The notes under the pieces were generated by a model. The model ran no database searches and was not told the DNA's origin. It saw only the letters and a list, made by a program, of their open reading frames with translations. From a bacterium (GTDB taxonomy: Bacteria > Elusimicrobiota > Elusimicrobia > UBA1565 > UBA9628), in NCBI GenBank assembly GCA_021806745.1, contig JAJZQS010000018.1, forward strand, positions 1 through 36,250: a DNA stretch of 36,250 bases, given 5' to 3'. Positions 3,428-28,964 of the stretch are shown piece by piece. The translations under genes were made by a program, and so were the position numbers. Position 1 is the stretch's first letter; each line of letters starts with the position of its first letter.

Positions 3428-4279
3428 TTATGAGGAGCTTCCCTGCGGAGGCCTCAACCAGAGCCGGGCCGAGGCGTTGACGGCGAGCACGAAAAGCATC
3501 AGAACGAGCGCGGCGGCCCAGGCCTGGCGGTGCCAGTCCTCGTAGGGGGAGATCGCGTAGTTGTAGAGCGTCTGAGGCAAGGTCGCGATGGGGTTGAGCA
3601 GGCCCTGGTCCCAGTAGGGACTGCCGAAAGAAGTGAAGATCAGCGGGGCGGTCTCGCCGGCCGCGCGCGAGAGCGCGAGCAACGACGCGGTGAGAATGCC
3701 GCGCCGCGCGGTGGGCAAGACGACGAAGGCCACCGCCTTCCAGCGCGGCACGCCCAGCGCCAGCGCCGCCTCGCGGATGGTGCCGGGGACTTGCCCCACG
3801 AAGTCTTCGGTCGAGCGCAGGACCACCGGGATCATGATCAACGCCAGGGCCACCGAGCCCGACAGCGCGCTGAAGCGCTTCATCGGCATGACGACGAGCG
3901 CGTAGGCGAACAGGCCGATGACGATCGAGGGCACGCCGTTCATCACGTCGGCCGCGTAGCGCACGAGGAATCCGAAGCGGCCGCGGCGGCCGTATTCGGC
4001 GAGGTAGAGGCCCGAGGCCACGCCCACGGGAATGCCCAGGAGCGCCGCGGTCCCCACGACCTTGGCCGAGCCGACGATCGCGTTGGCGATGCCGCCGCCG
4101 GTCTCTCCGACGGGCGCCGGCAGGCGCGTCAGGAACGCCCAGCTCAGCGACGACGCGCCCCGCCAGGCGATGTAGCCGAGAATGCCAAGCAGCACCGACG
4201 CCGAGACGGCCGCGCAAAGCGCGGTCAGCGCCAGCATCAGCGCGTTGACGCGGCGGCGCCGCGCGTAGGAGGAGTTCAC
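3428..4279 (-). CDS. pstA: Phosphate ABC transporter permease PstA
   Basis: A 283-residue inner-membrane permease with about six membrane segments. The ABC-coupling loop region [26 protein letters not shown] is the EAA motif that contacts Pst[17 protein letters not shown] and [18 protein letters not shown] are typical of PstA. It pairs with PstC to form the phosphate channel. Its start overlaps the end of pstC by four bases (ATGA), so translation is coupled. Confidence 0.94.
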
Positions 4280-5244
4280 GAGCGGTTCTCCAGGCGATAG
4301 ATCAGCAGTCGCGCCAGGCCGTTGATGACCACGGTCAGCGCGAACAAGGTCAGCCCCACGGCGATGAGCGCCGACAGGTGCGCGTCGCCGGCGGCCTCGG
4401 CCAGTTCGTTGGCGATGACCGCCGACATCGTGTAGGCGGGGGAAAACAGCGACGCCGAGATCGTGGGCGCGTTGCCGATGACCATGGTCACCGCCATGGT
4501 TTCGCCGAGCGCGCGCCCCAGCGCCAAAAACGCCGCGCCGGCGATGCCGGTGCGCGCGTAGGGCAGGCAGACGCCGCGCACGACCTCCCAGCGCGTGGCG
4601 CCGAGCGCGTGCATGCCTTCCTTGAGCGGGCGCGGGACGGTGAGCAGGACCTCGCGCGAGATCGCGGTGATGTAGGGCAGGATCATCACCGCGAGAATCA
4701 GCCCCGCCGACAGCAGGCCCACGCCGTAGGGCGCGCCGCGAAACAGGGGCAGAAAACCCAGCGCACGGCTCAGGGGCGGCTCGACGGCGCGCACCGCGGG
4801 AACAAGAAGGAATACCCCCATCAAGCCCAGGATCACGCTCGGCACCGCGGCCAAAAGCTCCACGGCGAAGCTCAGCGCCTGCGCCGCGCGCCGCGGCGCC
4901 AATTCGGTCAGGAATATCGCCGAGCCCACGCCCAGCGGCAGAGCGATGAGCATCGCCAGCGCCGAGGTGACGGCGGTGCCGTAGAGAAACGGCAGCGCTC
5001 CGAAGGAGTCGTCGACGGGGTTCCAGCCCGTGCGCCAGAGAAACGCCGGCCCCAGGCTCGTCCAGGTTTGGCGCGAGGCCGACGCCAACTGCCAGGCCAG
5101 CGCGAGCGCGACGAGCAAAATCAAGCTCGCCGCGACGGCGAGCGCGCGCCGGAAAAAAGCGTCCCCGGCCCTCTCGCGAGGGCCGGGGACGCGAGCGCGG
5201 CCGCGTCCGGTCGGGGGGGGGATGACCGGAGCGGCGCAGCCCAT
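4276..5244 (-). CDS. pstC: Phosphate ABC transporter permease PstC
   Basis: A 322-residue permease with the PstC signatures [21 protein letters not shown], the EAA loop [24 protein letters not shown], and [16 protein letters not shown]. The chosen ATG overlaps the pstS stop (TAATG), which implies translational coupling. The first 31 codons are unusual: they include a run of nine C (three Pro codons) and a complete intrinsic-terminator sequence. No in-frame ATG or GTG lies between that hairpin and the first membrane helix ([18 protein letters not shown]). The N-terminus must therefore be translated through the hairpin unless a non-standard start is used. Confidence 0.92.
5153..5190 (-). terminator. 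Intrinsic terminator inside the 5' end of pstC
   Basis: On the minus strand GTCCCCGGCCCTC and GAGGGCCGGGGAC form a perfect 13-bp stem. They enclose a GCGA (GNRA-type) tetraloop, followed by GC and six T. This is a textbook Rho-independent terminator oriented with pstS-pstC transcription. It lies in pstC codons 19-31, so ribosomes entering pstC would disrupt the hairpin. Partial termination here would leave more pstS than pstCAB mRNA. Confidence 0.85.
5213..5221. repeat. G9/C9 homopolymer tract in the start of pstC
   Basis: Nine consecutive G on the plus strand (C on the coding strand) lie at about pstC codons 8-11. Tracts this long can slip in replication and switch a reading frame; they are also common assembly errors. 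Confidence 0.8.
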
Positions 5245-6239
5245 TACTCGATCGTCGCGATGGTCTTGGACACCATCGCGCGCACGTTGGCCGGCAGCGG
5301 CGCGTAGCCCAAGGCCGGGGCCAGGGTCTGGCCTTCCTTCATCGCCCAGCGCAGGAAGTCGCGCAGTTCGATTCCCTTGCCCGCCGGATTGCGGGGATAG
5401 ACCAGCAGCCAGGTGTAGGTGGAGATGGGATAGGACTCGGCTCCGGGGGCGTCGGTGATCGAGACCCGATAGTCCTTGGGCATGCGCTTGGCGGCGCCGG
5501 CGGCGGCGGCCGTCACGCCGGCGATGCTGGCCTTGACGAAGCGCCCGGCCTTGTTCTTGACCGGCGCGTAGTCGATCGAGTTCTGCAGCGCGTAGATGAG
5601 CTCGATGTAGCCGATGGCGCCCGGGGTCTGCTTGATGAGGCCCGCCACGCCTTCATTGCCCTTGCCCCCCAGGCCCACGGGCCACTGCACCGAGACGCCG
5701 CGGCCCACGGACTTCTCCCACTCGGGGCTGACCTTGGACAGATAGTCGACCCAGCAGTAGGTGGTGCCCGAGCCGTCGGAGCGGTGCACGACGGTGATGG
5801 GCATGTCCGGCAGCTTGGCGCCGGGGTTGAGCTTGGCGATGGCCGGGTCGTTCCAGTTCGCGATCTTGCCCAGGAAGATGGCCGCCAGCGTGGGGCCGTC
5901 GAAGCGCAGGTTCCTGACGCCGGGCAGGTTGTAGGCGGGAACATCCGCGCCCATCACGGTGGGCAGGTGCAGCACATGGCCGCCGGCCTTGGCGATCTGC
6001 GCGTCGGTCATCGGACCGTCGGTGGCGCCGAAGTCGACGGTCTTCTCGGTGAACTGCCGGATGCCTCCACCGGAGCCGATGGACTGGTAGTTGATCTGCA
6101 AGTCGGGCTTGACCTTGCGGTAGGCGTCGGCCCACTTCGAATAGATCGGGTAGGCGAAGGTGGAGCCGGCGCCGGTCAAGGTCGCGGCGCACGCGGGTGC
6201 CGCGAGCAGGACGGCGACGAGAGCGGTTTCGAGCTTCAT
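5244..6239 (-). CDS. pstS: Periplasmic phosphate-binding protein PstS
   Basis: A 331-residue protein with a short signal peptide (MKLETALVAVLLAAPACA) and the PstS N-terminus GAGSTFAYPIYSKWADAY. The phosphate-binding loops are visible as SIGSGGGIRQF, DFGATDGPMT and HRSDGSGTTYCWVDYLSK. It captures phosphate in the periplasm and delivers it to PstC/PstA. The start has a strong AGGAGG ribosome binding site at 6246-6251. The promoter carries a row of 11-base Pho-box repeats, so strong induction by PhoB in phosphate starvation is expected. It is the first gene of pstSCAB-phoU and lies 97 bases downstream of the porin gene. Confidence 0.96.
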   Translation of the reverse strand: MKLETALVAVLLAAPACAATLTGAGSTFAYPIYSKWADAYRKVKPDLQINYQSIGSGGGIRQFTEKTVDFGATDGPMTDAQIAKAGGHVLHLPTVMGADVPAYNLPGVRNLRFDGPTLAAIFLGKIANWNDPAIAKLNPGAKLPDMPITVVHRSDGSGTTYCWVDYLSKVSPEWEKSVGRGVSVQWPVGLGGKGNEGVAGLIKQTPGAIGYIELIYALQNSIDYAPVKNKAGRFVKASIAGVTAAAAGAAKRMPKDYRVSITDAPGAESYPISTYTWLLVYPRNPAGKGIELRDFLRWAMKEGQTLAPALGYAPLPANVRAMVSKTIATIE

Positions 6240-7879: not shown

Positions 7880-9664
7880 CTACGCGCGCGCGGGCAAGGT
7901 GAAGCGGAAAGTCGTGCCGCCGGGCCGGCGGCTTTCGACGGAGACCTCGCCGCCCTGCGCCTCGACCAGGTGCTTGACGATGGAAAGCCCCAGTCCCGTG
8001 CCTCCGGCCTCGCGCGAGCGCGCCTTGTCCACGCGGTAGAAGCGCTCGAACACGCGCGGCAAGTCGGCTTCCGGGATGCCCACTCCGGTGTCGCGCACGG
8101 ACACCTCCACGCGTCCGCCGCGCGCGGCGCAGCTCACGCTCACCGAGCCGCCCGGCTCGGTGTATTTGATGGCGTTGTCGAGCAGGTTGGCCAGGATCTG
8201 GCGCGCGTGGTCGGGGTCGGCCGAGGCGCGCGGCAGGCCCTCCGGCGCGGGTTCGACGCCGAGCGTCACTCCCCGCTCCTCGGCGATCGGCGCGAACGCG
8301 CGCGCGGACTCGGCCAGCAGCGCGGGGACCTCCACGGCCGTCAGGCGCGGCGCGCGGTGGCCGGACTCGATGGCGGACAAGTCGAGCAGGTCGTCGACGA
8401 GCTTGGTCAGGCGGTCGGCGTGCTCTTCGATGGTGCGCACGAAGTCCTCGCGGTTGTCCTTGTCGTCGAGCGCGCCGGCGCGCAGGGTTTCCGCGTAGCC
8501 TTTGATGGAGGCCAGAGGCGTGCGCAGTTCGTGGCTGACGTTGGCCACGAAGTCGCGGCGCACCTGCTCCAGGCGGCGCAGCCGGGTGATGTCGTGGAGC
8601 ACCAGCAGAGCGCCGGCGGCGCGGCCCGCCTCGATCATCGGCGCGGCGTGAGCGTCGAAGACCATCTCCTCGGGCGCGAACAGGCGGATTTCCTGGGCCA
8701 GGGGCTTGCGCTCGCGCAAGACCGCGCCCAGCAGCGAGGCGATGCCGTTGTGGCGCAGGGCTTCGAGGTAGCGGCGGCCGCGCGCGGCCGCGGCGTCCAC
8801 GCCGAGCAGGCGCGACAGCGCCGGATTGACCACCAGCACCGCCCCCGCGCCGTCCACCGCGACGACGGCCTCGGTCATTTGGTCGAGCACCGCCGCGAGC
8901 TGAGCCTTGTCGCGGGAAAGCTCCGCGACGGTCGTCTGCACGCGCGCGGCCAATTCATTGAGCGCCCCGCCGAGCACGTCGAACTCCACCCCGCCCACGC
9001 CCGGCGCCCGCGCCTCGTAGTCGCCCGCGGCGATGCGTCTGGCGGCCGCGGCCATCTCGGCGACGGGCCGCGCGACCTCGCGCGCGAGCGCCGCCGAGGC
9101 CAGCAGCGCCGCGGCCAGCGCGGCGAGCGTGGTCCACAGCACCAGCGAGCGCGCGCGGCCGACGGCGAGCTCGACTTGCGCCAGCGGGACCGACAGGCGC
9201 GCCACTCCGAGCAGGCGCCCGGCTCGGCGCATCGGCGCCGCCGCGTAGAGCATCCCGCGCCCGACGGTGGCGCTGCGGCGCGAGGCCGTGACCTCCCGTC
9301 CCGAGACGGCCGCCGCGACCTCGGGCCGCGTCGAATGGTTCTGCGCGCGCGCGAGCGCCGCGTCGTCGAGCTCGGAGTCTCCGGCCAGCCGCCCGTCGGG
9401 CGCGATCAGGGTCGCGCGGCAAGCGCACGCGGCCGCAAGAAGCCGCGCCTCGGCCTGCGCCGAGCCGGCAGACAGCGCGGCGGGCGCGGCGCTGGCCGCG
9501 CGCAGCGCGGCCAGGCGCGCCTGCGTCTGCAGTCCGCGCGCGAGGTCGGCGGTCAGGCGCTCGCGCAGGCCGCGCGTGAGGACGGCGCCGACCGCCGCGA
9601 GGGTTCCGGCCACCACGGCCGCCACGAGCAGGCCCAGCCGGAGGCCGAAGCGCCCGCGCGTCAC
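7880..9664 (-). CDS. phoR: Phosphate-regulon sensor histidine kinase PhoR
   Basis: The 594-residue membrane kinase has a first membrane helix (about residues 8-30), a periplasmic sensor stretch, a second helix (about 168-190), a HAMP linker, a PAS domain (about 250-350), a HisKA domain and a HATPase. HisKA has the phospho-acceptor His near residue 378 in NVSHELRTPLASIKGY. The HATPase has N box DNAIKYTEPGG, G1 DTGVGIP, F box FERFYRVD and G2 GGTGLGLSIVKH. PAS plus HisKA is the usual PhoR layout; the large periplasmic part (about 135 residues) resembles the longer PhoR of Gram-positives rather than the short E. coli form. It overlaps phoB by four bases and lies in the Pho cluster, which supports the name. 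Confidence 0.9.
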   Translation of the reverse strand: MTRGRFGLRLGLLVAAVVAGTLAAVGAVLTRGLRERLTADLARGLQTQARLAALRAASAAPAALSAGSAQAEARLLAAACACRATLIAPDGRLAGDSELDDAALARAQNHSTRPEVAAAVSGREVTASRRSATVGRGMLYAAAPMRRAGRLLGVARLSVPLAQVELAVGRARSLVLWTTLAALAAALLASAALAREVARPVAEMAAAARRIAAGDYEARAPGVGGVEFDVLGGALNELAARVQTTVAELSRDKAQLAAVLDQMTEAVVAVDGAGAVLVVNPALSRLLGVDAAAARGRRYLEALRHNGIASLLGAVLRERKPLAQEIRLFAPEEMVFDAHAAPMIEAGRAAGALLVLHDITRLRRLEQVRRDFVANVSHELRTPLASIKGYAETLRAGALDDKDNREDFVRTIEEHADRLTKLVDDLLDLSAIESGHRAPRLTAVEVPALLAESARAFAPIAEERGVTLGVEPAPEGLPRASADPDHARQILANLLDNAIKYTEPGGSVSVSCAARGGRVEVSVRDTGVGIPEADLPRVFERFYRVDKARSREAGGTGLGLSIVKHLVEAQGGEVSVESRRPGGTTFRFTLPARA

Positions 9665-10347
9665 GGCTCGGGCTTGATGCGGTAGCCGACGTTCTTGACG
9701 GTGGCCACGCGCGCGGACTCGGGGCCGAGCTTGTCGCGCAGGCGCGCGACGTGCTGGTCGACGGTGCGGGTGTCGATCTCCATGGAGCGGTCGTAGCCCC
9801 AGACCTTCTCCAGGATCTGGTCGCGAGACAGCGCGCGGCCGCCGGACTGCAGGAGGATCTTCAGGAACTCGAACTCCTTGGAGGTGAGCTGGACGTCCTT
9901 GCCGCGCACGCGGACCTCGTAGCGTTCGACGTCCATCTCGATGCCGCCGGCGCGCAGCAGCGACGCCGCCGCCTCGGCCGGAGCGGCTCGGCGCAGCAGC
10001 GCCTTCACGCGCGCCAGCAGTTCGCGCACGCCGAAGGGCTTGGTCAGGTAGTCGTCGGCGCCGAGCTCAAGTCCCAGCACGCGGTCCACTTCTTCCTTGC
10101 GCGCGGTCAGCATCAGCACGGGCGCGCGGGTTTCGCGGCGGACGATCTTGAGCAGTTCGAAGCCGTCGAGCTTGGGCACCATCACGTCCAGGATCAGCAG
10201 GTCCGGGCGGTCCTTGCGCGCCGCGCCCAGGCCCGCCTCGCCGTCCGTGGCCGAGACGACGCGGTAGCCCTCCTTTTCGAGGTTGTATTTCAGCAGACGC
10301 ACGATGTCCTTGTCGTCTTCAACGACGAGGATCTTTTCCTGGGCCAT
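9661..10347 (-). CDS. phoB: Phosphate-regulon response regulator PhoB
   Basis: A 228-residue OmpR-family regulator. The receiver domain has acidic residues VVEDDKDI, the phosphorylation Asp in LLILDVMVPK (near residue 54) and the Lys in LTKPFG. The C-terminal winged helix carries EFEFLKILLQSGGRALSRDQ and TVDQHVARLRDKLG. Once phosphorylated by PhoR it should bind the 11-base repeats found nearby. It is transcribed with phoR (4-base overlap). No convincing ribosome binding site precedes the ATG; a weak GAGCAT six bases upstream hints at a leaderless start. A single CGTCAC half-site lies about 45 bases upstream. Confidence 0.93.
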   Translation of the reverse strand: MAQEKILVVEDDKDIVRLLKYNLEKEGYRVVSATDGEAGLGAARKDRPDLLILDVMVPKLDGFELLKIVRRETRAPVLMLTARKEEVDRVLGLELGADDYLTKPFGVRELLARVKALLRRAAPAEAAASLLRAGGIEMDVERYEVRVRGKDVQLTSKEFEFLKILLQSGGRALSRDQILEKVWGYDRSMEIDTRTVDQHVARLRDKLGPESARVATVKNVGYRIKPEP

Positions 10348-10494: not shown

Positions 10495-11121
10495 GTGGCT
10501 TTTCGACTGATTCCGAGGGAAGAGAAGTTCTTCGATTTGTTCGAGGCCCAGGCCGCGCACAACGTCGAGGCCGCGAAGCTTTTTCGCGAGATGGCCGTCT
10601 CCTGGAGCCGGGAGCGCTCGCGCTTCGACCGTTTGCGCGACATCGAACACGAGGCCGACATCACCTGCCACGAGATCTACGACAAGCTCAACCGCACCTT
10701 CGTCACGCCCTTCGACCGCGAGGACATCCGCGAATTGGCCAGCGAGCTCGACACGGTCGTCGACTTGATCGAGTCGGTGGGGCAGAGGATGTACCTTTAT
10801 CAGATCGCGGCGGCGCACGAGGACTTGGCGCGGCTGACCGACATCCTCTATCAGTGCGCGCAGACGCTGCACAAGGCGGTCTGCGAACTGCGCGATCCGG
10901 CCAAGTCCCGCCGCGTCCTCGACTACTGCATCGAGGTCAACCGCCTGGAGAACGCCGGCGACCACGCGCTGGGCACGGCCATCGGCAAGCTCTTCCAGGG
11001 CCGGCCCGATCCGCTCGAGGTCATCAAGTGGAAGGAGATCTACGAAACCGTGGAGCAGTCCATCGACAAGTGCGAAGACGTCGCGCACACGCTCGAGACG
11101 ATCCTGGTCAAGCAGGCCTGA
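10495..11121 (+). CDS. DUF47 / PhoU-like Pit accessory protein
   Basis: The 208-residue helical protein has PhoU-like repeats: RFDRLRDIEHEADITCHEIYDKLNRTF and EVNRLENAGDHALGTAIGKLF, plus EQSIDKCEDVAHTLETIL. FVTPFDREDIRELASELDTVVDLIE is characteristic of the DUF47 family that travels with Pit transporters and is thought to modulate them. It begins with GTG after a purine-rich CAGGGGGCGGGG stretch. The pit gene follows four bases after its stop, and the pair forms the first half of a four-gene operon. Confidence 0.9.
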   Translation: MAFRLIPREEKFFDLFEAQAAHNVEAAKLFREMAVSWSRERSRFDRLRDIEHEADITCHEIYDKLNRTFVTPFDREDIRELASELDTVVDLIESVGQRMYLYQIAAAHEDLARLTDILYQCAQTLHKAVCELRDPAKSRRVLDYCIEVNRLENAGDHALGTAIGKLFQGRPDPLEVIKWKEIYETVEQSIDKCEDVAHTLETILVKQA

Positions 11122-11125
11122 GGCC

Positions 11126-12130
11126 GTGGGCCACCTGAGCCCGGCGATCGTCGCCGTGATCGTGATGGCGTTCCTGTTCGACATGCTCAACGGCATGCAC
11201 GACGCGGCCAACTCGATCGCGACGGTCGTGTCCACGCGAGTGCTCTCTCCCGGGCAGGCCGTGCTGTGGGCGGGATTTTTCAACTTCGTGGCGGCCTTCT
11301 TCTTCAAGGTCCATGTCGCCGACACCATCGGCAAGGGTCTGGTCGATCCTCGCGTCGTGGACACGGCGGTGGTGGCCGGGGCTCTCATCGGCGCCAGCCT
11401 CTGGGACTGGATCACGATCGTCTTCGGCATCCCGGTCAGTTCCTCCCACGCTCTCATCGGGGGGATGATCGGAGCCGGCTTTGCCAAGGCCGGCGCGGGC
11501 TGCCTGCAGTACGCGACGCTCAAGACCACGGTCTTGTTCATCTTCCTGTCGCCGCTGATCGGCTTGATCTTCGGCTTCGGGCTGATGGTGGCGGTCTACT
11601 GGATTTTCCGCCGGCGCTCCCCGTCGCAGGTGGACCGGTTCTTCCGCGTCGGCCAGATGTTCTCGGCCGGACTCTACAGCCTTTCCCACGGCGCCAACGA
11701 CGGCCAAAAAACGATGGGCGTCATCGCGGTGCTTCTCTACGCCAACGGCCTGCTCGGCGACAAGTTCTACGTTCCGGTGTGGGTCATCGTCGCCTGCTGC
11801 GCGGTCATGGGCCTGGGCACGACGCTGGGCGGCTGGAAAATCGTGCGCACGATGGGCAGCAAGGTCACCAAGCTCAAGCCGGTGGGGGGCTTTTGCGCCG
11901 AGGCCGGCGCGGGGCTGTCGATCTTGATCTGCTCGGCCTTCGGCATCCCGGTGTCGACCACGCACACGATCACCGGCGCCATCGTCGGCGTGGGCACGAC
12001 CCAGCGGCTGTCGGCCGTGCGTTGGGGCGTGGCCGGGCGCATCGTTTGGGCCTGGGTGCTGACGATCCCGTGCGCCGCGCTCACCTCGGCGCTGGTCTAC
12101 AAGCTTCTGGCGCTGGCGTTTCGAGCATGA
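11126..12130 (+). CDS. pit: Low-affinity inorganic phosphate transporter Pit
   Basis: A 334-residue inner-membrane symporter of the PiT family. It has the two inverted signature repeats: NGMHDAANSIATVVSTRVLSP in the first half and LSHGANDGQKTMGVIAVLL in the second. Repeated GIPVSSSHALIGG and GIPVSTTHTITGA also match. Pit imports metal-phosphate with protons and serves phosphate-replete growth, which complements the high-affinity Pst system. A GTG start follows the DUF47 stop by four bases. The length is on the short side, similar to other DUF47-linked Pit proteins. Confidence 0.93.
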   Translation: MGHLSPAIVAVIVMAFLFDMLNGMHDAANSIATVVSTRVLSPGQAVLWAGFFNFVAAFFFKVHVADTIGKGLVDPRVVDTAVVAGALIGASLWDWITIVFGIPVSSSHALIGGMIGAGFAKAGAGCLQYATLKTTVLFIFLSPLIGLIFGFGLMVAVYWIFRRRSPSQVDRFFRVGQMFSAGLYSLSHGANDGQKTMGVIAVLLYANGLLGDKFYVPVWVIVACCAVMGLGTTLGGWKIVRTMGSKVTKLKPVGGFCAEAGAGLSILICSAFGIPVSTTHTITGAIVGVGTTQRLSAVRWGVAGRIVWAWVLTIPCAALTSALVYKLLALAFRA

Positions 12131-14967: not shown

Positions 14968-14980
14968 ATTATGATATCAT
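14968..14980. promoter_or_regulatory. Shared AT-rich palindrome between divergent sixA and CYTH genes
   Basis: ATGATATCAT (14971-14980) is a perfect 10-base palindrome in a GC-rich context. On the minus strand CATAAT (14968-14973) would serve as -10 for sixA. On the plus strand TATGAT (14970-14975) or TATCAT (14975-14980) would serve the CYTH gene. The two promoters must overlap, so the genes probably compete or are co-regulated. Confidence 0.5.
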
Positions 14981-14988
14981 GGCGCCCG

Positions 14989-15777
14989 ATGTCGCGAAGC
15001 TTCGACGCCCTCGCCCGTTCGCTCAAGACGCGGCTTGCCATCGACGACCTGCGCTTCGTCGAGATCGAGTGCAAGAAGCGCGTGCTGCCCGAGGAGTCCT
15101 CCGAGCTCAAGGAGTGGCTGCTCGAGCGCCGCGGCGTCAAGCACAAGAAGAGCGCGTTCTTCTTCGACCAGTTCCTGGACACCGCCTCGGGCGACCTCTT
15201 GCGCGCCGGCGCCAGCCTGCGCCTGCGCTACAAGCGCGGCGGCTCGGCGGTCTACCTCCAATACAAGGGCCCCGGCTTCAACCGCGACGGCATCCTGTAT
15301 CGCTCGGAGTTCTCCTCGGCGCGCTTGACCGGCGTGTTCCTGGAGGAGAGCCACCACGACATCGTGCATTTCGCCGACGTCACCGTGGACTCGATTTTGC
15401 GCGGCCAGGCCACCTCCGAGATGGCCGAGGCCATGCGCCGCCACTTGGGCGCCGGCGTGGTGCGCCGCATCTCCAGCGGCCCCATCCTCGCGCTGTACCA
15501 AAAGGAGAAGTTCGAGGTGGACCTGGGCTCGGCGTTCCTGGAGCCCTCGCTTGACCGCGTGTTCGCCTTCCACATCGCCAAGAAGGGCCTGCACCCGTTG
15601 TCGACTTTCTGCGAGTTCGAAAACGAGATCAAGGCCGGCGACGGCTCCCTGCGCGCCAAGCTCGAGCACATGGACGACATGAGCGACTTCAACGCCGAAG
15701 TCGAGAAGCGCTTCGACTTGCGCCGCGAGCCGCTGGACAAATACCACCGCTGCGCGTCGTTCTTCGCGCGAAGCTGA
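14989..15777 (+). CDS. CYTH-domain triphosphatase-like protein
   Basis: The 262-residue protein begins its CYTH tunnel fold with FVEIECKKRV, a good ExExK-type metal and phosphate-binding motif. Arg/Lys-rich strands inside the tunnel follow (SLRLRYKRGG, VYLQYKGPGF), and later acidic strands include EVDLG and CEFENEIK. CYTH enzymes hydrolyse triphosphates such as thiamine triphosphate or inorganic tripolyphosphate, or act as class IV cyclases; the substrate cannot be decided here. No CHAD domain follows. Its neighbours SixA and, further on, Ppk1 make a polyphosphate link plausible. ATG 14989 follows TATCAT by eight bases; an in-frame ATG at 14971 lies inside the promoter palindrome. Confidence 0.82.
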   Translation: MSRSFDALARSLKTRLAIDDLRFVEIECKKRVLPEESSELKEWLLERRGVKHKKSAFFFDQFLDTASGDLLRAGASLRLRYKRGGSAVYLQYKGPGFNRDGILYRSEFSSARLTGVFLEESHHDIVHFADVTVDSILRGQATSEMAEAMRRHLGAGVVRRISSGPILALYQKEKFEVDLGSAFLEPSLDRVFAFHIAKKGLHPLSTFCEFENEIKAGDGSLRAKLEHMDDMSDFNAEVEKRFDLRREPLDKYHRCASFFARS

Positions 15778-19616: not shown

Positions 19617-21755
19617 TCAGATCTCGCCGCGCTGGAACAGCGCGGTGTCGCGGTAGTCGGAGCGCGCCAGCGCCTCGAAGAAGGTCTGCGAGCGGATGGG
19701 CGCGGCGCCGGGGCCGGGAACGACGCGCGCGTAGGAGCCGTCGGGGCGCAGGGCCCAAGCCTTCTGGTTGTCGGCCAGCCCCTTGCCGAGGATCGTGTCG
19801 TGGACGTAGCGCTTGAGCAGGGGGTCCTTGACCGGGAAGGCCACCTCGTAGCGGGAGTAGAAATTGCGCGGCATCCAGTCCGCGCTGGACAAATAGAGCT
19901 TGCGCGCGCCGCCGGCGCGGAAGTAGTAGATGCGGCTGTGCTCAAGGAAGCGGTCGACGACGCTCGTCACTCGGATGTTTTCGGACATGCCCGCGATGCC
20001 GGGGCGCAGGCAGCAGATGCCGCGCACCATCAAGTCGACCTTGACGCCCGCGCGCGAGGCGTCGTAGAGCGCCTCGATGATGACCGGGTCCACGAGCGCG
20101 TTCATCTTGGCGACGATGTGGCCGCGCGCTCCGGATTTCTGCAGCCGCGTCTCCTCGCGGATGAGCGAGAGCATGCTCGAGTGCAGGTTGACCGGCGCCA
20201 CCAGCAGTTCGCGGAACGCCTCGGGCTTTCGCCCGCGCGCGAGTGCGGTGAAATAGGCCGCCACCTCGCGGCCCAGCGCCTCGTCGCAGGTCAGCAGGCC
20301 CAGGTCGGTGTATTGCTTGGCCGTGACCGGGTGGTAGTTGCCGGTGCCCAGGTGCAGGTAGGACACGAGCTCTCCGCCCTCCTCGCGCAGGACCTGGGTG
20401 ACCTTGGAGTGCACCTTGAAGCGGCCCAGGTGGCGCACGACCTTCACGCCGGCGGCGCGCAATTCCTCGGCCCAGCGCAGGTTGTTGAGCTCGTCGAAGC
20501 GCGCCTTGATCTCCACGTAGGCGACCACGGACTTGCCGTTGGCCGCGGCGGATTTCAGCGCCTCCATCACCGGCGAGTCTTGGCTCGTGCGGTAGAGCGT
20601 GTGGTAGATCGCGCGCGTCTGCGGGTCGCGCGCGGCGCCCTGCAGGAACTTCACGACGATGTCGAAGGAGTCGTAGGGGTGGTGGAGCAGGATGTCGCGC
20701 TTGCGCACGATCGCGAAGGCCGAGCGCGGCTTGCGGAAAGGGCCCGGCACGCGCGGCTCGATGGGCGGGTAGCGCAGCGCGCCCGGCCGCGGCGGCTCGA
20801 TGCGCGCGAGCGTGCGCAAATCCAGCGGCAAATCGAAGCGGTAGAGCGCCCCCGAGTCCAGGCCGAGCGCGGTGGCCAGAAACAGCGCTCCCTCCGAGTA
20901 GGCGGGGGAGTCGACTTCAAGCCGCACGACCTTCGCGCGCGTGCGCCGCTGCACGGCCTCCCAGATCTGGTCTTCGAGCGATTCCTCGTAGTCGGGGCGG
21001 TAGCGCAAGTCGGCGTCGCGGATGATCTTGAACGGGAAGGTCTCGATGACCTCGCGGCCCGCAAACAGCGCGGCGGCGCGGTCGGCCAGCCAGCGCTCGA
21101 GCAGCGCGAAGCGCCGAGCGCCGCGCCGCGTGGGCAGGGGCAGAAGCCGCGCCTCGCGCTCCTCGATGGTGATCACCGCGTACTCGCGCGGGAAGCGCAC
21201 GAACACGTGGATGCGCTCGCTCATCAAGGCCGGCGGCGGGTCCGGGTAGCGGCGCAAGACCACGCGCAGGCGGGGCAGCCGCCGGTGGATCTCGCGGTCG
21301 GACGAGCGCGACGCGGAGAAGTCGGTCAAGATCTCGACGCCCTCCCGGCGCAGCGCGGCCAGCACGTCTTCGAGCACCGCGGCCTGGCGCGACTTCTGGC
21401 GCAACGCGTGCTCGCGGATCTGCGCCAGCGCCTGGCGCGCGGAAAGCCCGTCCGGGAAGCGTTTGAGCGGGAATCGGCGCGCGATCTTGCCGATCTCGGC
21501 CACGCGGACCATGAAGAACTCGTCGAGGTTGGAGCTGACGATGGTCGCAAAGCGCAGGCGCTCCAGCGCAGGCACCGTGGCGTCGGCGGCCTCCGACAGC
21601 ACGCGGTCGTTGAACGCCAACCACGACAGGTCGCGGTTGAACAGGCGCTCGGAGGCCTTCAGTCCCTCGTCGGGCCGGACGGCGGCGGCCGGGGCGTCGT
21701 CGATGCGCAGAGCCGGGAGTTGGAGTCGTGGCGGCATGGCCGAAGCGGAGGCCAT
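19617..21755 (-). CDS. ppk1: Polyphosphate kinase 1
   Basis: The 712-residue enzyme (E. coli Ppk is 688) makes long-chain polyphosphate from ATP. The N-terminal domain is typical (FNRDLSWLAFNDRVLSEA, FATIVSSNLDEFFMVRVAEI). The autophosphorylated His is near residue 449 in RFKVHSKVTQVL, followed by YLHLGTGNYHPVTAKQYTDLGL. The second catalytic His is near 606 in FLEHSRIYYF, then LYLSSADWMPRNF. Both are offset by about 14 from E. coli His435 and His592, so the core is complete. ATG 21755 is six bases after the stop of the MFS gene upstream, with no ribosome binding site; an in-frame ATG at 21737 is the alternative. It is the last gene of a four-gene operon. Confidence 0.96.
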   Translation of the reverse strand: MASASAMPPRLQLPALRIDDAPAAAVRPDEGLKASERLFNRDLSWLAFNDRVLSEAADATVPALERLRFATIVSSNLDEFFMVRVAEIGKIARRFPLKRFPDGLSARQALAQIREHALRQKSRQAAVLEDVLAALRREGVEILTDFSASRSSDREIHRRLPRLRVVLRRYPDPPPALMSERIHVFVRFPREYAVITIEEREARLLPLPTRRGARRFALLERWLADRAAALFAGREVIETFPFKIIRDADLRYRPDYEESLEDQIWEAVQRRTRAKVVRLEVDSPAYSEGALFLATALGLDSGALYRFDLPLDLRTLARIEPPRPGALRYPPIEPRVPGPFRKPRSAFAIVRKRDILLHHPYDSFDIVVKFLQGAARDPQTRAIYHTLYRTSQDSPVMEALKSAAANGKSVVAYVEIKARFDELNNLRWAEELRAAGVKVVRHLGRFKVHSKVTQVLREEGGELVSYLHLGTGNYHPVTAKQYTDLGLLTCDEALGREVAAYFTALARGRKPEAFRELLVAPVNLHSSMLSLIREETRLQKSGARGHIVAKMNALVDPVIIEALYDASRAGVKVDLMVRGICCLRPGIAGMSENIRVTSVVDRFLEHSRIYYFRAGGARKLYLSSADWMPRNFYSRYEVAFPVKDPLLKRYVHDTILGKGLADNQKAWALRPDGSYARVVPGPGAAPIRSQTFFEALARSDYRDTALFQRGEI

Positions 21756-21761
21756 GATAGC

Positions 21762-23030
21762 TTATTGCTCCCGGCCGTCGCGGCTCAGCCTCGCGGCCGC
21801 CGCGAACTGGGCCAGCGCCAGCGCGGCCAGCCCCGCGCCGACCGCGGCGAAGGCCCCGCGCGGACCCGCGCCCAGCGCGAAGGCCGCGCCCACCAGCGCC
21901 TTGACCAAGACCGAGGCGCCGTCGGCGCAAAACCGCGCGGCCGCGGTGACTCCACCGATGAGTCCGGCCGGCGTGCGCTCCTGCGCGCGGCGCGTCAGCG
22001 CCAGGCGCGCGCCGACGTTGCCCAGCGAAAACAAAAACGCCGCGGCCAGCATGGGCGCCAGGCCGCCCGGCGCCCAGCCCAGGGCCAACGCCAGCGCGCC
22101 CGCGCCGCCCGCCGCGAGCCACCCGGCCGCGCCCGCTCCCGCTCGCCGCGCGTAGAGCAGGGCGCCGAGCGCGCCGCCGATGCCAAAGGCCGCGCCGACC
22201 AGGCCCGCGGTCTCGGGACGAGACAGGATCGCGGAGGCGAAGAAGGCCGACAGCAGCTTGCGCAGCGGATACAGGTTCAGCGCCGCCGCCCCCGCGACCG
22301 CGGCGAGCAGGACCGGGTCGGCCAGCACGGCGCCCAGGCCCTGCAGGGGCCCTCCGGGCGCCGCCCCGGGGCGCGAAGGCCTGGGGCGCAGGGGCTCGGG
22401 GCGCGTGCGGCGGGGGATGGTCCAGAAGGCGAGCGCGGCCAAGACGAAGCCCGCCGGCACCAGCGCGTGCGCGGCCAAGCTCGCGGCGCGAGGACCGCGC
22501 AGCAGCAGAGCGGCCAGAAGCGCGGGGCCCAGCGCCGCGCCCAGGTCGAAGACGAACTCGTAGCGCGCGTTGACCGCGTCGAGCGCGGCGGCGTCTCGTC
22601 CGGCCAGCTCCAGCGGCAGCGCGTGGGCGGCGGTGTCGGCAAATCCCCGCACCAGGGCGTCGAGCGTGTAGGCCGCGGCGGCCGCGGCCAGCGTCAGGCG
22701 CCCGGACAGCCACAGGAGGGGAATCAGCGCCAGGCTCGCGCCGCGCAGCAAGGTGGCCGCGCACAGAAGGCGCCGCGCGCCGAAGCGGTCGGCGGGCCAG
22801 CCGGCCAGGAACGCCCCGCCCATGTGCACCGAGGTGTCGAAGGCCGAAAAGAGGGCCGCGTCGGCCAAGGAGCCGCCGGCCAGCCGCGCGATGAGCAGGG
22901 GTTGGAGCAGGTGCAGCGCGCCGTTGACGATCTGCGCCAGGAACACCCCGGCCAGAAATCCCGTCGGCGCGCCAAGCGCCGGCGAGAGCGCCGCTGGGTT
23001 CTCGGCGGGCGCTTCCAGCACCGCGCTCAC
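21762..23030 (-). CDS. MFS protein, paralogue of the fused MFS domain
   Basis: A 422-residue protein with 12 hydrophobic helices and short tails. Its N-terminal half (FLAGVFLAQIVNGALHLLQP, AGWPADRFGARRLL, VRGFADTAAHALPLELAGRD) aligns well with the MFS domain of the large fusion gene two genes upstream (YLAGAFMAQLASN, GGRMTDRWGAKPVLL, CRGLADTARSTLPSEVAGAD). A local duplication is likely. The substrate is unknown. It overlaps the phosphatase gene by four bases (ATGA) and precedes ppk1 by six bases, so its function is probably tied to theirs, perhaps export or import of a phosphorylated compound. Confidence 0.82.
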   Translation of the reverse strand: MSAVLEAPAENPAALSPALGAPTGFLAGVFLAQIVNGALHLLQPLLIARLAGGSLADAALFSAFDTSVHMGGAFLAGWPADRFGARRLLCAATLLRGASLALIPLLWLSGRLTLAAAAAAYTLDALVRGFADTAAHALPLELAGRDAAALDAVNARYEFVFDLGAALGPALLAALLLRGPRAASLAAHALVPAGFVLAALAFWTIPRRTRPEPLRPRPSRPGAAPGGPLQGLGAVLADPVLLAAVAGAAALNLYPLRKLLSAFFASAILSRPETAGLVGAAFGIGGALGALLYARRAGAGAAGWLAAGGAGALALALGWAPGGLAPMLAAAFLFSLGNVGARLALTRRAQERTPAGLIGGVTAAARFCADGASVLVKALVGAAFALGAGPRGAFAAVGAGLAALALAQFAAAARLSRDGREQ

Positions 23031-23710
23031 GCGGCCTCGAGCTCCCGCGCGGGCCAGGAGTCCTTTCGCGCGTAGACGCGCCGTGCGGGGACGCCGACCA
23101 GGCGCCGCTCGGGCAGGATCAGCGCGGTGAGAGCGCCGCCGTAGACGCAGCCGGTGTCTAGTCCCACCGCGTTGCGGCGCACGACGGGCTTGGGCGCGGC
23201 CCAGTGGCCGAACACGGCCAGGCGCTCGTCTTCGTAGCGCTCATACCACGGCTCGCCCGTGTCTTTCAGGCGGCGCAGGCCGGTCAGCATCACGTCGGAC
23301 TGGCGCGCGAGCGCGCGGCGCGGGTCGAAGCCGGCGTGGACGACGAGCAAATCCGGTTCGTCGATGGTCAGCGGCCAGCCGGCGATGACGCGCATCGCCG
23401 GCTCGTAGAGCTCGCCCAACTGGCGCACGGTTTCCATGTCGTAGGGCTTGACGTCGGGCAGAACGCCGCGGCGGCGGCAGTTGAGAAAGCGCAGTTCGTG
23501 GTTGCCGAGAACGCACTCGACATTCGGCGCGCGCATGGCCCACTCGAGCACGCCGCGGCTGTCGGGTCCCTTGCAGATCAGGTCGCCGACGCAGATGACG
23601 CGGTCCTCGCGTCCCACGCGGGCGGCGCGCAGCAGTTCGCGCAGTTCGGCCGAGCAGCCGTGGATGTCGCCGATGACGACGGTGCGGCGCGGGACTCTTT
23701 TATGGCGCAT
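23027..23710 (-). CDS. ApaH-like metallophosphatase
   Basis: A 227-residue PPP-type metallophosphoesterase with all metal-binding motifs: VIGDIHGC, VGDLICKGPDS, LGNHELRFL, VVHAGFDP and VFGHW. The ending GLDTGCVYGGALTALILPE is typical of ApaH-like enzymes. Members split dinucleoside polyphosphates; eukaryotic ApaH-like Ppn2 and related enzymes cut polyphosphate. Its place between the fusion gene (11-base overlap) and the MFS-ppk1 pair (4-base overlap) makes polyphosphate or a nucleotide polyphosphate a good guess for its substrate. A protein phosphatase role is the alternative. Confidence 0.85.
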   Translation of the reverse strand: MRHKRVPRRTVVIGDIHGCSAELRELLRAARVGREDRVICVGDLICKGPDSRGVLEWAMRAPNVECVLGNHELRFLNCRRRGVLPDVKPYDMETVRQLGELYEPAMRVIAGWPLTIDEPDLLVVHAGFDPRRALARQSDVMLTGLRRLKDTGEPWYERYEDERLAVFGHWAAPKPVVRRNAVGLDTGCVYGGALTALILPERRLVGVPARRVYARKDSWPARELEAA

Positions 23711-26700
23711 CGTCGCCCTCCGGCGGGGGCGTGAGCCCCGCCTTCTTCATGCGCTTCAGGTAGCGCGTGTGGGCGCTCAGCAACTCGTCGCGGATCGTGC
23801 GCCCGGCCTCGACGAGATCGCCGAAGTCCCGTTCCAGCGCGTTTTCGAGGTCACTTTCGGTCGTGCCGTCTTGAAGCGAGAGGCGATGCGCGCGGCCGAG
23901 CTGCGTGCCCACCGCGTAGGCCAAGTCGGCCTGCTGATCGAGCGTGAGCATTTTCTTGATCTTGGCGTTGAGCGGGTCGATGCGGCGCACGTCGTATTCG
24001 ACGCCGTCGAGAGTCGCCGAGCCTTCGCCCTGGGCCCAGTCGGGCGCGTAGAGAGAGGAGGCCGCGTGCATGCGCGCGATCTCGCTCGGATAGGGATTGG
24101 TGTACCAGCGCGTGTCGGGATCGGAGCGGACCTGTTTGATGTTCAAGAGGATGCGGTCAAGCCCCGAGTTCGGGTCCTTGGGCGCCAAAACGACCAAGAA
24201 CAGTCCGCGAAAGCCCATCGAGCCCCGCCCGCGCCCGGCCTCCTCGATGCGGTAGCGCTCCAAAAGCCCGCCGCCGAGGCTGCGGTCGTAGCCCTCCACC
24301 AGAGCGACGACGTCGGGGTCGCTGGCGGGCAGCGGCGAGCGGCGCATCTCGGCCGCCCACTTGCCGCCGGACTTGAGATACGCGTCGACGCTCTCCTCGC
24401 CCGGGCCCGGCTCCGCGTCCTTGAGCAGGCGCGCCTCGGAAAACGGCCGGTCGGGGTGGCGCAGTCCGTGCAGATAGCCCTTCTTGAGCTGCTTGAGCAC
24501 GGACTTGTCGAGCAGGTCCTCGTCGGGCTTCTTGCGCCGCAAAGACAGAGACACCATCAGGCGCAGCAAATCCCAGGCGTAGGGCCCCACGCGCGAGCGG
24601 TCGAAGTCCACCATCGCCGCGCCGCGGCTGGATTTGGCGTAGTTGTCGACGTGCGGCGAGCCGTGCAGCAGCACGCGCGGCATCGCGGCCATGTCCATGA
24701 GCTCGGCGAAGCGCTCCTGCATGGGCAGCAGCATGTTGCGGAAGTAGAAGTGCGCGCCGCGCTTCTCCTTCATGTAGTTGCGGCGGATGTTGTCGGCGTC
24801 GCCGGCGGGATCCTTGTCGAAGAGGCCGGACTTCGGCGCCGCGTCGCGGCGTTTGAACGACGACAGGTCTCCGAGCGCGCGGCGCGCCGCCACGCCGACC
24901 GCGGCCGCGACGGCGTCGCGGTCCTTGGAGGCGTCGATCGGGCGCAGCCCGAATTCGCGCATCTGCGCGTCGTAGGACGCCGCCACGCGGGTCTGGAACT
25001 CGCGGAAGTTCTCCAGATCGTCGGGCGAGAAGTTCTGGTCGCGCCCGACCGCGTAGTAGTTCTGGCCCAGCACCTTGCCGGCGGAGTCCTCGTCGAAGTC
25101 CTCCGACAGGCGCGGCGCGCCGCCCCCGGCGCGAGACATCACGCGCGAGATCGCCGCCTCCACCGGCAGGCGGAAATACAGCGTCAGGTCCGGACGCGGT
25201 GCGTTTTCGTAGAGCGACCTCAGCCAGCGCGGGTCGTTGCCGCGCACCGAGTCGCGCGCCAGCGCCGTGAAAAACCAGCGGTCGGCCAACACCACCGCGC
25301 CCGAGCGCAGCGCGGGCAAGACCACCTTGTCGAGACGGTCCGAGAGATCGGCCGCGTTCATCAGCGCGAAAGTCCGCGGGTCGAGCGCGCGCGCCTTCTT
25401 GGCCTTCTTGACCGCCTCGGAGGCCAAGTCGGAGGAGTTCCAGCTCGTCTCCACGACCTCCACGCCGCGCGACTCCAAGTCCTCCTTGAGCCGTTGCATC
25501 TGGGTGGATTTTCCCGAGCCGTCCAGTCCTTCCACGACGATGAGGCGGCCGGGCATGCCGTGCACGGGCGAGAGTCGTGGCGGGGCGGCGGGAGACAGGG
25601 CCATCATCGCCGCCGCGGAGACGGGGCGCGTCAGCCGCAGCGCCGAGGCGCCCAACGCCAGCGCCGTGACGCCGAGTCCTCCGGCGATGGCGGCAAACGA
25701 ACCCGCGGCAGACAGCGCCGCGCCGAAGGCCAAGCCGGCGAGCAGGCGGATGGCCAGACCCGTCGCGTTGGCCGCGAAGCGCGCCGGGCCCATCAGCGCG
25801 CCGGCCCGGCCGGGCTCGGCGCGGCGCTGGATCTCGGCGCTCAGCGCCAGGCGCGCGGCGGTGTTGGTGGCGGCAAAGAGCAGGATGCCCGCGGCCGCGG
25901 GCAGAAACGCCCCGGGTAAAAACGCCGCGCCAAGAAGCGCCACTCCGCCGGCGCCCGCCGCGATCCAGCCCCGCGCGCCGCGCTCGCGAGAGAATCGTCC
26001 ATAGGCGAGCGCGCCCAAAAGCCCGCCGACGCCGAACATGCCCGTCAGCCAGGCCGCGGAGGTTTGGCTGTGCAGGATTTGCGTGGCGAACACCGCGGGC
26101 AGCAGGCCCTTGAGCGGATAGACGGTGAGCAGCGCCGCGCAGGCCAGCGCCCAGGCTTTCCAGCCGTCCAGGCGCGCGGGCGTCGAGTTCGACGCGGACG
26201 CGTCGGAGGCGGCCGGGATCGGCGCGCGGCGCGGCAAGGTCAGGTAGGCCGCCGCGACCAGCGCGAAGGCGATGGGCGCCACCAAGAGCGCGGCCGTCGA
26301 CGCCGCGCCGCCCATCGCGGCGATCAGCCCTCCGGCCACGAAGGGGCCCGCGAGCGCGCCCGACTCGAGCGCGGTCTGGTTGCGCGCGAGCACGGTCTTG
26401 AGCGCCGCCTCGTCGGCGCCCGCGACCTCGGAGGGCAGCGTGCTGCGCGCGGTGTCGGCCAAGCCTCGGCAGAAGCTTTCGACCGCGTAGGCGGCCGCGA
26501 CCGCGGGCAGGGTCAGCGCGCCGCCGGCGGCGAGCGCGGGCAGCGCGGCCACGGCCAAGCCGCGCGCGACGGTGCTTGAAAGCAAGACGGGTTTGGCGCC
26601 CCAGCGGTCGGTCATGCGCCCGCCGATCAAGGTCCCCACGGCGTCCAGCGCCGAGCCGGCGGCGAGCAGGAATGCGGTCGACGACGCGGCGCCGGTCATC

Positions 26701-27329
26701 TTAAGGAAAATCAGAGGCATCGTCACCTGCTGCGAGTTGCTGGCGAGCTGGGCCATGAACGCGCCGGCCAGGTAGCCGCGCAGCTTGGGCGCGCGCGGCG
26801 TAGACGGCTTGAGACTGGCCGCGGCGGAGCGCGCTTGGGCGCGGGCAACGAGCGAATCGTCGGACGCGACGGCGCGAGCGCCGCCGTCGAACAGACGCGA
26901 GCCCGCGATCGCGGCGGCCGCTTCGCCGCGGCGCTCGCCGGCAATGAGCGCGCGCAGATTGGAGAGGAAGGTCGCGACTCGCGGCGCGGGCGCGGCGGCC
27001 GGAGCCGCGGCGAAAGGTGTCGCGGCCTCGTCGGCCGCGGCGGCCACGGCCGCGGCGGAGGCGGCCGGAGCAGGTGCGGACGCCGGCGCGGCGGAAGCGG
27101 CAAGCGCGGGGGCGGCCGAGAGGTTCGGCGCGGCCGCGCGCAGAGACGGCGCCATGGACGCTGCCGTGAGGCCCGGAGCCTCAGCGGCGGATCCGGAGAG
27201 GGCGAGGGGGAGAGCGCCCATTGCGATGGGTGCGGAGGGCGGCGCCTCGGCCGCGCGCGCGGCTTGCGCCCACGCCGACGCCCCCGGGATCGAAAGAAGA
27301 TACAGCGCCGCCAGTGCCGTTCTCATCAT
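23700..27329 (-). CDS. Fusion: signal peptide, Ala-rich linker, MFS, thymidylate-kinase-like, DUF2252
   Basis: A single 1209-codon frame. Residues 1-22 are a signal peptide (ALYLLSIPGASAWAQ). Residues to about 165 are Ala/Pro-rich linker. About 172-585 is a 12-helix MFS domain with GGRMTDRWGAKPVLL. About 593-790 is a thymidylate-kinase-like P-loop domain: Walker A VEGLDGSGKST near residue 600, DRWFFTALARDSVRG in place of the DRYxxS motif, and PDLTLYFRLPVEAAISRVMSR. About 795-1195 is a DUF2252 domain with kinase-like LLHGSPHVDNYA and MVDFDRSRVGPYAWDLLRL. It heads an operon with an ApaH-like phosphatase, a paralogous MFS protein and Ppk1. The start follows TACAAT by six bases. I know no described protein with this order. 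The kinase may phosphorylate whatever the MFS domain moves; that is conjecture. Confidence 0.85.
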   Translation of the reverse strand: MMRTALAALYLLSIPGASAWAQAARAAEAPPSAPIAMGALPLALSGSAAEAPGLTAASMAPSLRAAAPNLSAAPALAASAAPASAPAPAASAAAVAAAADEAATPFAAAPAAAPAPRVATFLSNLRALIAGERRGEAAAAIAGSRLFDGGARAVASDDSLVARAQARSAAASLKPSTPRAPKLRGYLAGAFMAQLASNSQQVTMPLIFLKMTGAASSTAFLLAAGSALDAVGTLIGGRMTDRWGAKPVLLSSTVARGLAVAALPALAAGGALTLPAVAAAYAVESFCRGLADTARSTLPSEVAGADEAALKTVLARNQTALESGALAGPFVAGGLIAAMGGAASTAALLVAPIAFALVAAAYLTLPRRAPIPAASDASASNSTPARLDGWKAWALACAALLTVYPLKGLLPAVFATQILHSQTSAAWLTGMFGVGGLLGALAYGRFSRERGARGWIAAGAGGVALLGAAFLPGAFLPAAAGILLFAATNTAARLALSAEIQRRAEPGRAGALMGPARFAANATGLAIRLLAGLAFGAALSAAGSFAAIAGGLGVTALALGASALRLTRPVSAAAMMALSPAAPPRLSPVHGMPGRLIVVEGLDGSGKSTQMQRLKEDLESRGVEVVETSWNSSDLASEAVKKAKKARALDPRTFALMNAADLSDRLDKVVLPALRSGAVVLADRWFFTALARDSVRGNDPRWLRSLYENAPRPDLTLYFRLPVEAAISRVMSRAGGGAPRLSEDFDEDSAGKVLGQNYYAVGRDQNFSPDDLENFREFQTRVAASYDAQMREFGLRPIDASKDRDAVAAAVGVAARRALGDLSSFKRRDAAPKSGLFDKDPAGDADNIRRNYMKEKRGAHFYFRNMLLPMQERFAELMDMAAMPRVLLHGSPHVDNYAKSSRGAAMVDFDRSRVGPYAWDLLRLMVSLSLRRKKPDEDLLDKSVLKQLKKGYLHGLRHPDRPFSEARLLKDAEPGPGEESVDAYLKSGGKWAAEMRRSPLPASDPDVVALVEGYDRSLGGGLLERYRIEEAGRGRGSMGFRGLFLVVLAPKDPNSGLDRILLNIKQVRSDPDTRWYTNPYPSEIARMHAASSLYAPDWAQGEGSATLDGVEYDVRRIDPLNAKIKKMLTLDQQADLAYAVGTQLGRAHRLSLQDGTTESDLENALERDFGDLVEAGRTIRDELLSAHTRYLKRMKKAGLTPPPEGDDAP

Positions 27330-27335
27330 GCGGTC

Positions 27336-27359
27336 ATTGTAGGCCCCGCGGCGCCGCGG
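27336..27359 (-). promoter_or_regulatory. Promoter of the fusion-ppk1 operon with a 14-base palindrome
   Basis: On the minus strand TACAAT (27336-27341) lies six bases before the ATG (TACAAT-GACCGC-ATG). Just upstream, CCGCGGCGCCGCGG (27346-27359) is a perfect palindrome filling the spacer and the -35 position. It could be an operator or a chance GC palindrome. No -35 consensus is seen. Confidence 0.5.
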
Positions 27360-27431
27360 ACGAATAGCCCGAGAATCTTCGTCGTGTCAACGCTGCGTGA
27401 CGCCGAAGTGCCCGGAGGTCCCGGAACCGAA

Positions 27432-28952: not shown

Positions 28953-28958
28953 GCGCAC

Positions 28959-28964
28959 AGCGTA
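28959..28964 (-). promoter_or_regulatory. -10-like TACGCT, six bases before the Lys-rich protein gene
   Basis: On the minus strand TACGCT-GTGCGC-ATG, a weak hexamer but with the same six-base spacing as several other genes here. It supports the 28952 start. Confidence 0.35.

Follow-up and report, generated by a model that had tools for sequence, protein, structure and literature searches.

A conserved gene fusion of an MFS carrier, a thymidylate-kinase-like domain and DUF2252 in one Elusimicrobiota family, clustered with an ApaH-like phosphatase gene and ppk1

In a 36,250-nucleotide stretch of DNA from an Elusimicrobiota genome (GenBank assembly GCA_021806745.1, contig JAJZQS010000018.1, positions 1 to 36,250; hereafter the window) a single gene encodes a major facilitator superfamily (MFS) carrier, a thymidylate-kinase-like (TMK-like) P-loop kinase and a DUF2252 domain in one polypeptide. 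We find that this three-domain protein is genuine and conserved in one Elusimicrobiota family. A preliminary description of the window had reported one frame of 1209 codons joining the three domains, in good agreement with our analysis: the minus-strand frame 23700..27329 is uninterrupted from its ATG through 1209 codons, and all three Pfam families match above their cut-offs, with MFS_1 (PF07690) at residues 188-521 (58.8 bits, cut-off 33.4), Thymidylate_kin (PF02223) at residues 599-734 (80 bits, cut-off 27) and DUF2252 (PF10009) at residues 856-930 (36.5 bits, cut-off 22.3). The APH family also matches residues 802-928 (28.1 bits, cut-off 23.2). The G+C fractions at codon positions 1, 2 and 3 are 0.71, 0.56 and 0.90, a coding-type pattern.

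The same architecture recurs in relatives. Among 30 genomes (the window's own and 29 relatives), seven further members of the same genus gave strong matches to the TMK-DUF2252 part, one of these being truncated where its contig stops, and genome G019 matched the DUF2252 part alone. The frames of these relatives read MFS-TMK-DUF2252 wherever the contig extends far enough, and MFS-DUF2252 in G019. Two peptide patterns drawn from this DUF2252 subfamily were also run against a collection of 84,980 genomes and returned 12 loci, all in metagenome-assembled genomes (MAGs), ten labelled Elusimicrobia or Elusimicrobiota and two merely 'bacterium'; one of the 12, L042 (genome G011), is a complete chromosome. 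Together with the window, these loci (L032-L043) amount to 13 distinct genomes. Likewise, 13 of 340 genomes of the phylum carry the subfamily: 12 have the kinase-DUF2252 part, all in one family (f1) and in four genera, and the thirteenth, G019 of family f2 (locus L043), has MFS-DUF2252 without the kinase. Within the window's genus the fusion is present in 8 of 19 genomes and absent from 11.

The preliminary description had proposed a search for the architecture in other genomes and had named separate genes in relatives as the sign of a chimeric assembly. Instead, the three domains share one frame at ten loci (the window, L032, L033, L034, L036-L040 and L042); L035 and L041 are cut by contig ends that leave the MFS part uncovered, and the MFS_1 score of L033, 30.7 bits, is under the Pfam cut-off. 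All three domains appear to be under constraint: over six pairs, Nei-Gojobori dN/dS ratios, which are rough because dS reaches 0.9 in the distant pair, are 0.11-0.40 for TMK, 0.11-0.40 for DUF2252 and 0.08-0.78 for MFS. A chimeric assembly or a run-on frame joining separate genes, to which high G+C DNA with its many long spurious frames and the different frames of presequence and MFS in the complete chromosome L042 might point, is effectively refuted for the three domains and hardly credible, since other Elusimicrobiota MAGs carry the same order in a single frame at ten loci of different genomes, L042 included, the G+C pattern by codon position is of the coding type and dN/dS stays below 1 for every domain in every pair.

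The three-domain order is new to these searches, whereas the MFS-TMK pair has an actinobacterial precedent. The preliminary description knew of no protein with this order; since MFS-TMK occurs in Nonomuraea and MFS-DUF2252 in L043, that novelty is now confined to the triple, within profile searches that covered this phylum only and a pattern scan of 84,980 genomes that would miss distant DUF2252-TMK fusions. Full-text literature searches returned nothing combining DUF2252 with thymidylate kinase, and among the listed matches on MFS-kinase fusions none concerned this architecture by title or start of abstract. In the Nonomuraea gerenzanensis fusion of MFS and dTMP kinase (L057), MFS likewise precedes Thymidylate_kin in one frame, and TIGR00900 is the best NCBIfam match of the MFS part in both proteins, under cut-off in both. 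However, the Nonomuraea kinase scores far above the dTMP kinase cut-off (174.6), and the protein has no DUF2252 and no signal-peptide-like, Ala/Pro-rich start that we could see by eye. A looser analogy, and used only as such, is PRK08633, which we take to represent MFS-acyltransferase fusions: it too joins a carrier to an enzyme, but a different one, and the MFS part matches it at a weak 18 bits, far below the cut-off of 1221.

Table 1. Features of the fusion gene and its surroundings in the window
Feature	Position	Strand	Basis
Fusion gene, 1209 codons: presequence, MFS, TMK-like kinase, DUF2252	23700..27329	-	open frame, Pfam, order kept in relatives
Signal-peptide-like start, residues 1-23	27261..27329	-	sequence, judged by eye
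Ala/Pro-rich segment, residues 24-185	26775..27260	-	39% Ala, 11% Pro over 162 residues
MFS domain, about residues 186-560, motif-A-like GRMTDRWGAK	25650..26774	-	MFS_1, charge distribution
TMK-like P-loop kinase, about residues 594-815, Walker A at 25503-25529, DRW	24885..25550	-	Thymidylate_kin, 2plr match, alignment
DUF2252 domain, about residues 835-1209: HGSPHVDN (889-896), DFD (908-910), Gly-rich loop (1034-1039), Lys 1065	23703..24827	-	
TACAAT, -10-like box 6 bases before the ATG, possible leaderless start	27336..27341	-	ortholog comparison
ApaH-like PPP phosphatase	23027..23710	-	Metallophos; GDIHG, GDLICKG, GNHE; 11-base overlap with fusion
MFSb, stand-alone MFS, paralogue of fused MFS	21762..23030	-	Pfam; 39% to fused MFS; 4-base overlap with phosphatase gene
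ppk1, polyphosphate kinase 1	19617..21755	-	TIGR03705, 695.4 bits (cut-off 465.85); 6 bases after MFSb
CYTH-domain protein	14971..15777	+	PF01928; homologue in 5 of 6 other TMK-bearing loci examined over at least 20 kb
DUF47 (PhoU_div) and PHO4-family phosphate transporter genes	10495..12130	+	
Two ABC permease genes (BPD_transp_1; PstA/PstC by position) and pstS	3428..6239	-	
Response regulator, OmpR/PhoB class	9661..10347	-	Response_reg, Trans_reg_C

The fusion, set in a phosphate/polyphosphate neighbourhood, heads a cluster in which it is followed by the ApaH-like gene, MFSb and ppk1 (Table 1), and the two overlaps and the 6-base gap suggest that the four genes form one coupled unit. The association with ppk1 and an ApaH-like phosphatase had been pointed out in the preliminary description; the genes are indeed close, and the link to the phosphatase is conserved. 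We call the phosphatase ApaH-like only, because it scores below the cut-offs of both ApaH models (PRK00166, 109.1 against 176; TIGR00668, 61.4 against 222.85); ApaH proper was rejected for 23027-23710. The only other match of MFSb in its own genome is the fused MFS, at 39% identity. The ApaH-like gene and MFSb lie beside the fusion or within a few kb of it in all 12 TMK-bearing loci (the window and L032-L042), with the ApaH-like gene upstream instead in L037-L039 and MFSb upstream too in L039, while in the TMK-less L043 no match to the ApaH-like gene, nor one to a separate MFSb, lies within 6 kb. ppk1 is found within 6 kb of the fusion in seven of the 12 (L032 and L034 stop at contig ends). 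Over at least 20 kb, ppk1 and CYTH are present in six of seven TMK-bearing loci (the window, G010, G007, G227, G210 and G011), PHO4 with DUF47 in three (the window, G007 and G210) and pst genes in two (the window and G007); pst genes also lie near the fusion of G019. In the family, 17 of 44 genomes have the ApaH-like gene, namely the 12 with the fusion and five of genus g16, which lacks the fusion and in which the gene adjoins ppk1 in four genomes and is split over contigs from it in the fifth. Within the window's genus the ApaH-like gene is present in 8/8 genomes with the fusion and 0/11 without, compared with 8/8 and 9/11 for ppk1. Gene order and phosphatase co-occurrence thus link the fusion to phosphate, polyphosphate and nucleotide chemistry.

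We tentatively read the protein as a phosphate-linked carrier joined to a nucleotide-type kinase in the cytosol and to a kinase domain that has degenerated and serves regulation, a reading that we infer as a whole and hold to be plausible rather than probable. The MFS domain would move across the inner membrane a metabolite that bears a phosphate or can receive one, a nucleotide or similar compound being the likeliest candidate, and the TMK-like domain, placed in the cytosol right behind the carrier, would phosphorylate this cargo from ATP and so trap or charge it. The ApaH-like phosphatase could reverse the phosphorylation or free phosphate. DUF2252, having lost its catalytic Asp, may bind nucleotide or polyphosphate and tune MFS and kinase to the phosphate or ATP state, and MFSb may be a duplicate that either handles the same substrate by itself or forms a pair with its fused counterpart. 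The coupling of uptake or efflux to phosphorylation, already proposed in the preliminary description, remains a guess.

The cytosolic placement of the C-terminal domains is favoured by the charge distribution: in an averaged profile of 11 MFS parts, Lys/Arg number about 3 to 5 in each stretch assigned to an even loop, as against 0 to 0.2 in those between. The helix count of 12 rests on homology, as our hydropathy scripts gave 13 peaks, some of them merged, and did not resolve 12 helices. The hydropathy profile has no clear extra helix ahead of MFS and a weak Ala-rich hydrophobic stretch after the last helix. By eye, a signal-peptide-like start is seen at nine loci (the window, L033, L034, L036-L040 and L043) and also in L042, in another frame than MFS; in L032, L035 and L041 the contig stops short of the presequence.

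Several observations weigh against this picture of a carrier feeding a cytosolic kinase. The segmentation behind the charge argument is rough, and stretch 277-330 holds about as many acidic as basic residues. If the conserved signal-like start works as a Sec signal and is translocated, whatever precedes MFS would lie outside, in conflict with a 12-helix MFS with cytosolic ends, and the end of such an MFS would be placed outside the ATP-bearing cytosol. The signal-like starts of stand-alone DUF2252 proteins, described below, could hint that DUF2252 works outside the cytosol as well. In the most distant pair, constraint is weakest on the MFS (39% identity and dN/dS 0.78 with dS near saturation, compared with 70% identity for TMK and 65% for DUF2252). 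As to the neighbourhood, ppk1 is missing within 6 kb of the fusion in L037, L038 and L040, both ppk1 and CYTH are missing from the 20 kb examined in G215, and a search for PhoB-type Pho boxes gave no excess over chance (one match at 3 mismatches, 0.53 expected). Moreover, the co-occurrence counts are neither independent nor exact, because the carriers are closely related and many of the genomes incomplete.

The 39% identity of the MFS in the pair in which TMK keeps 70% and DUF2252 65% would also fit a fused MFS that no longer transports but serves the two cytosolic kinase domains as a membrane anchor or as a sensor of nutrients, in the manner of a transceptor of the phosphate system, leaving transport to MFSb, which is the sole other match of its kind in its own genome and sits in the same cluster in 12/12 TMK-bearing loci. 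We consider this possible but doubtful: the MFS_1 match covers most of the profile, the motif-A-like loop is retained, and the dN/dS of the MFS is 0.08-0.30 in four of the six pairs, in L037/L038 below that of both other domains.

The preliminary description had missed the signal-peptide-like start and the 162-residue Ala/Pro-rich segment ahead of the MFS. In G011, a crude script found a signal-peptide-like start followed by an Ala/Pro-rich stretch in 4 of 253 candidate frames (46 with such a start), namely L059:16138-17577, L060:12704-14014, L062:3038-5395 and L073:6847-9339; two are Rce1-like proteases, one is ChaN-like and one has no Pfam match. In the same genome (L042), ppk1 is read in two overlapping frames (G011 C1:2330739-2332843), which, like the shift of the presequence, points to frameshifts or sequencing errors.

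The DUF2252 domain departs from its stand-alone relatives in the catalytic loop. In the phylum's stand-alone proteins the GDxHxxN loop reads GDAHPEN in five of seven and GDAHPDN in L099 (no loop was captured for L101, the seventh), whereas the fusion has HGSPHVDN; across the fusion family the loop is HGSPH.DN in 12/13 sequences and HGNPHLDN in L043, such that the catalytic Asp is replaced by Ser in 12 and by Asn in one. None of the 13 sequences varies in the loop His and Asn, the DFD aspartates, the Gly-rich loop or the Lys, and we assume for these positions the roles that they have in protein kinases. The kinase-like motifs of the preliminary description, LLHGSPHVDN and VDFDRSRVG, are therefore present, the first of them departing from GDxHxxN, and of its two phosphotransfer-like domains the TMK-like one keeps its motifs while DUF2252 lacks the loop Asp; the loss of catalytic residues that it had named as counter-evidence is thus seen in part for DUF2252 and not for the kinase domain. 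Set against the GDxHxxN of PF10009, the fused domains differ both in this Ser or Asn and in lying behind MFS or MFS-TMK. PMC9758233 describes DUF2252 as a kinase-like fold with swapped lobes, and the motif order of the fused domain fits such a kinase. It probably binds nucleotide and may not be an ordinary kinase.

The retention of the Gly-rich loop, Lys, Asn and DFD aspartates in 13/13 sequences despite the lost Asp, together with strong constraint on the domain (dN/dS 0.11-0.40), could instead signal a working transferase of unusual chemistry rather than a regulatory remnant, for example one of nucleotidyl transfer, the reaction that SelO pseudokinases perform. However, ATP-binding pseudokinases also retain their binding residues, and we regard this idea as rather unlikely.

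By eye, six of the stand-alone DUF2252 proteins that keep GDAHP[ED]N (L099, L100, L102, L103, L106 and L107) have signal-peptide-like starts, which is odd for an ATP-using fold. The DUF2252 profile matched no solved structure up to E 1. Plasmid tblastn with the fused domain gave a single match at E 9, and with a stand-alone protein two records, both annotated as DUF2252 family protein. DUF2252 is also listed for a Streptomyces cluster in PMC13118837.

The kinase domain bears the marks of a nucleotide-type kinase. Its Walker A, GLDGSGKST (residues 601-609), intact as first described, is invariant in 11/11 aligned kinase domains, as is the DR of the second motif, which reads DRW and, in L037 and L038, DRY. 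Among solved structures PDB 2plr matches best (E 2e-34), with identity at 65 of 138 aligned residues; other thymidylate kinases come next, from 5e-17. The 2plr protein, a Sulfolobus tokodaii thymidylate kinase according to PMC4748334, shares the WNSSD and ARDSVRG stretches; unlike it, the fused domain is longer between the two segments that match and is joined to MFS and DUF2252 rather than free-standing. The curated dTMP kinase model TIGR00041 is narrowly missed (82.0, cut-off 83.25). Since a separate tmk matching nearly the whole profile is present in 12/12 carrier genomes, the fused kinase, which is not the only tmk-type gene, probably has a job other than that of the cell's tmk.

Could this job involve polyphosphate? 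The PPK2 polyphosphate kinases belong to the same broad P-loop kinase superfamily (PMC4748334), and the same paper states that after other PPK2s the structures closest to F. tularensis PPK2 are thymidylate kinases, among them 2PLR, the best match here. With ppk1 and CYTH as neighbours, a TMK-like domain that uses or makes polyphosphate beside PPK1 as PPK2 does is thus conceivable, but we think it improbable: PPK2 models match the fused kinase no better than 12.8 bits (cut-off 301.8), as against 82.0 with the dTMP kinase model, and the second motif is DRW or DRY, not the DRS tripeptide given for PPK2 in PMC4748334. Membership of PPK2 was rejected on the score.

If the fused kinase did no more than serve as dTMP kinase of the cell, as may be the case for the actinobacterial MFS-TMK fusion, this would agree with the above-cut-off Thymidylate_kin match, the TIGR00041 score just below threshold and the identical domain order in Nonomuraea; it is very unlikely given the separate tmk in 12/12 carriers, which also speaks against the fused kinase as the sole dTMP kinase, the absence of the fusion from 11 of 19 genomes of the genus, and the 174.6 of the Nonomuraea protein with the same model.

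At E <= 1e-20 the kinase alignment also matches frames of 216-247 residues in seven other genomes, and a search with it found TMK-like proteins that share 34-37% identity with the fused domain on viral contigs L128 and L129 (about 220 kb). Phage tblastn returned 95 records, the best 10 of the 95 being annotated thymidylate kinases, and PHROGs and PADLOC matches fall in the kinase and MFS parts, including PDC-M51B at 1.3e-11.

The annotated start of the fusion is supported by the position of a TAnAAT box and by its enrichment. Upstream of the orthologs, TAnAAT followed by six bases precedes the start codon in five of nine loci, and TAnnnT with the same spacing in seven of nine. In 400 kb of the relative G011 (20 stretches, L059-L078; both strands), TAnAAT lies 5-7 bases before ATG 30 times, compared with once for an ATC control. 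This suggests a leaderless transcript that starts with the fusion gene. The enrichment in G011 further suggests that leaderless transcripts are common in these bacteria. A sigma-70 scan of 19400-29300 found no promoter-like site; it gave 13 terminator-like sites where 6.0 were expected, many within genes. The gene upstream of the fusion (window 27432-28976, minus strand) has a signal-peptide-like start, is Ala/Pro-rich and then very Lys-rich, and has no Pfam match; among the compared loci its counterpart was recognised only in L033 (G010).

The architecture described here brings into one protein a carrier, a kinase of the nucleotide type and a degenerate domain from a kinase-like family that is still uncharacterised, and within the genus the phosphatase is found exactly where the fusion is. 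The boldest form of the carrier-kinase reading, which we consider a long shot, is a single-polypeptide transport-and-phosphorylate machine for nucleotides, in which the carrier hands its cargo to a nucleoside-monophosphate-type kinase, the lobe-swapped pseudokinase senses ATP or polyphosphate and the co-inherited phosphatase provides the reverse step, the whole serving phosphate storage via PPK1. If true, this would be an MFS protein doing group-translocation-like chemistry. The TMK-less L043 is a natural reference for judging the contribution of the kinase domain, and the fusion gives the rarely treated DUF2252 a concrete context in phosphate, polyphosphate and nucleotide chemistry.

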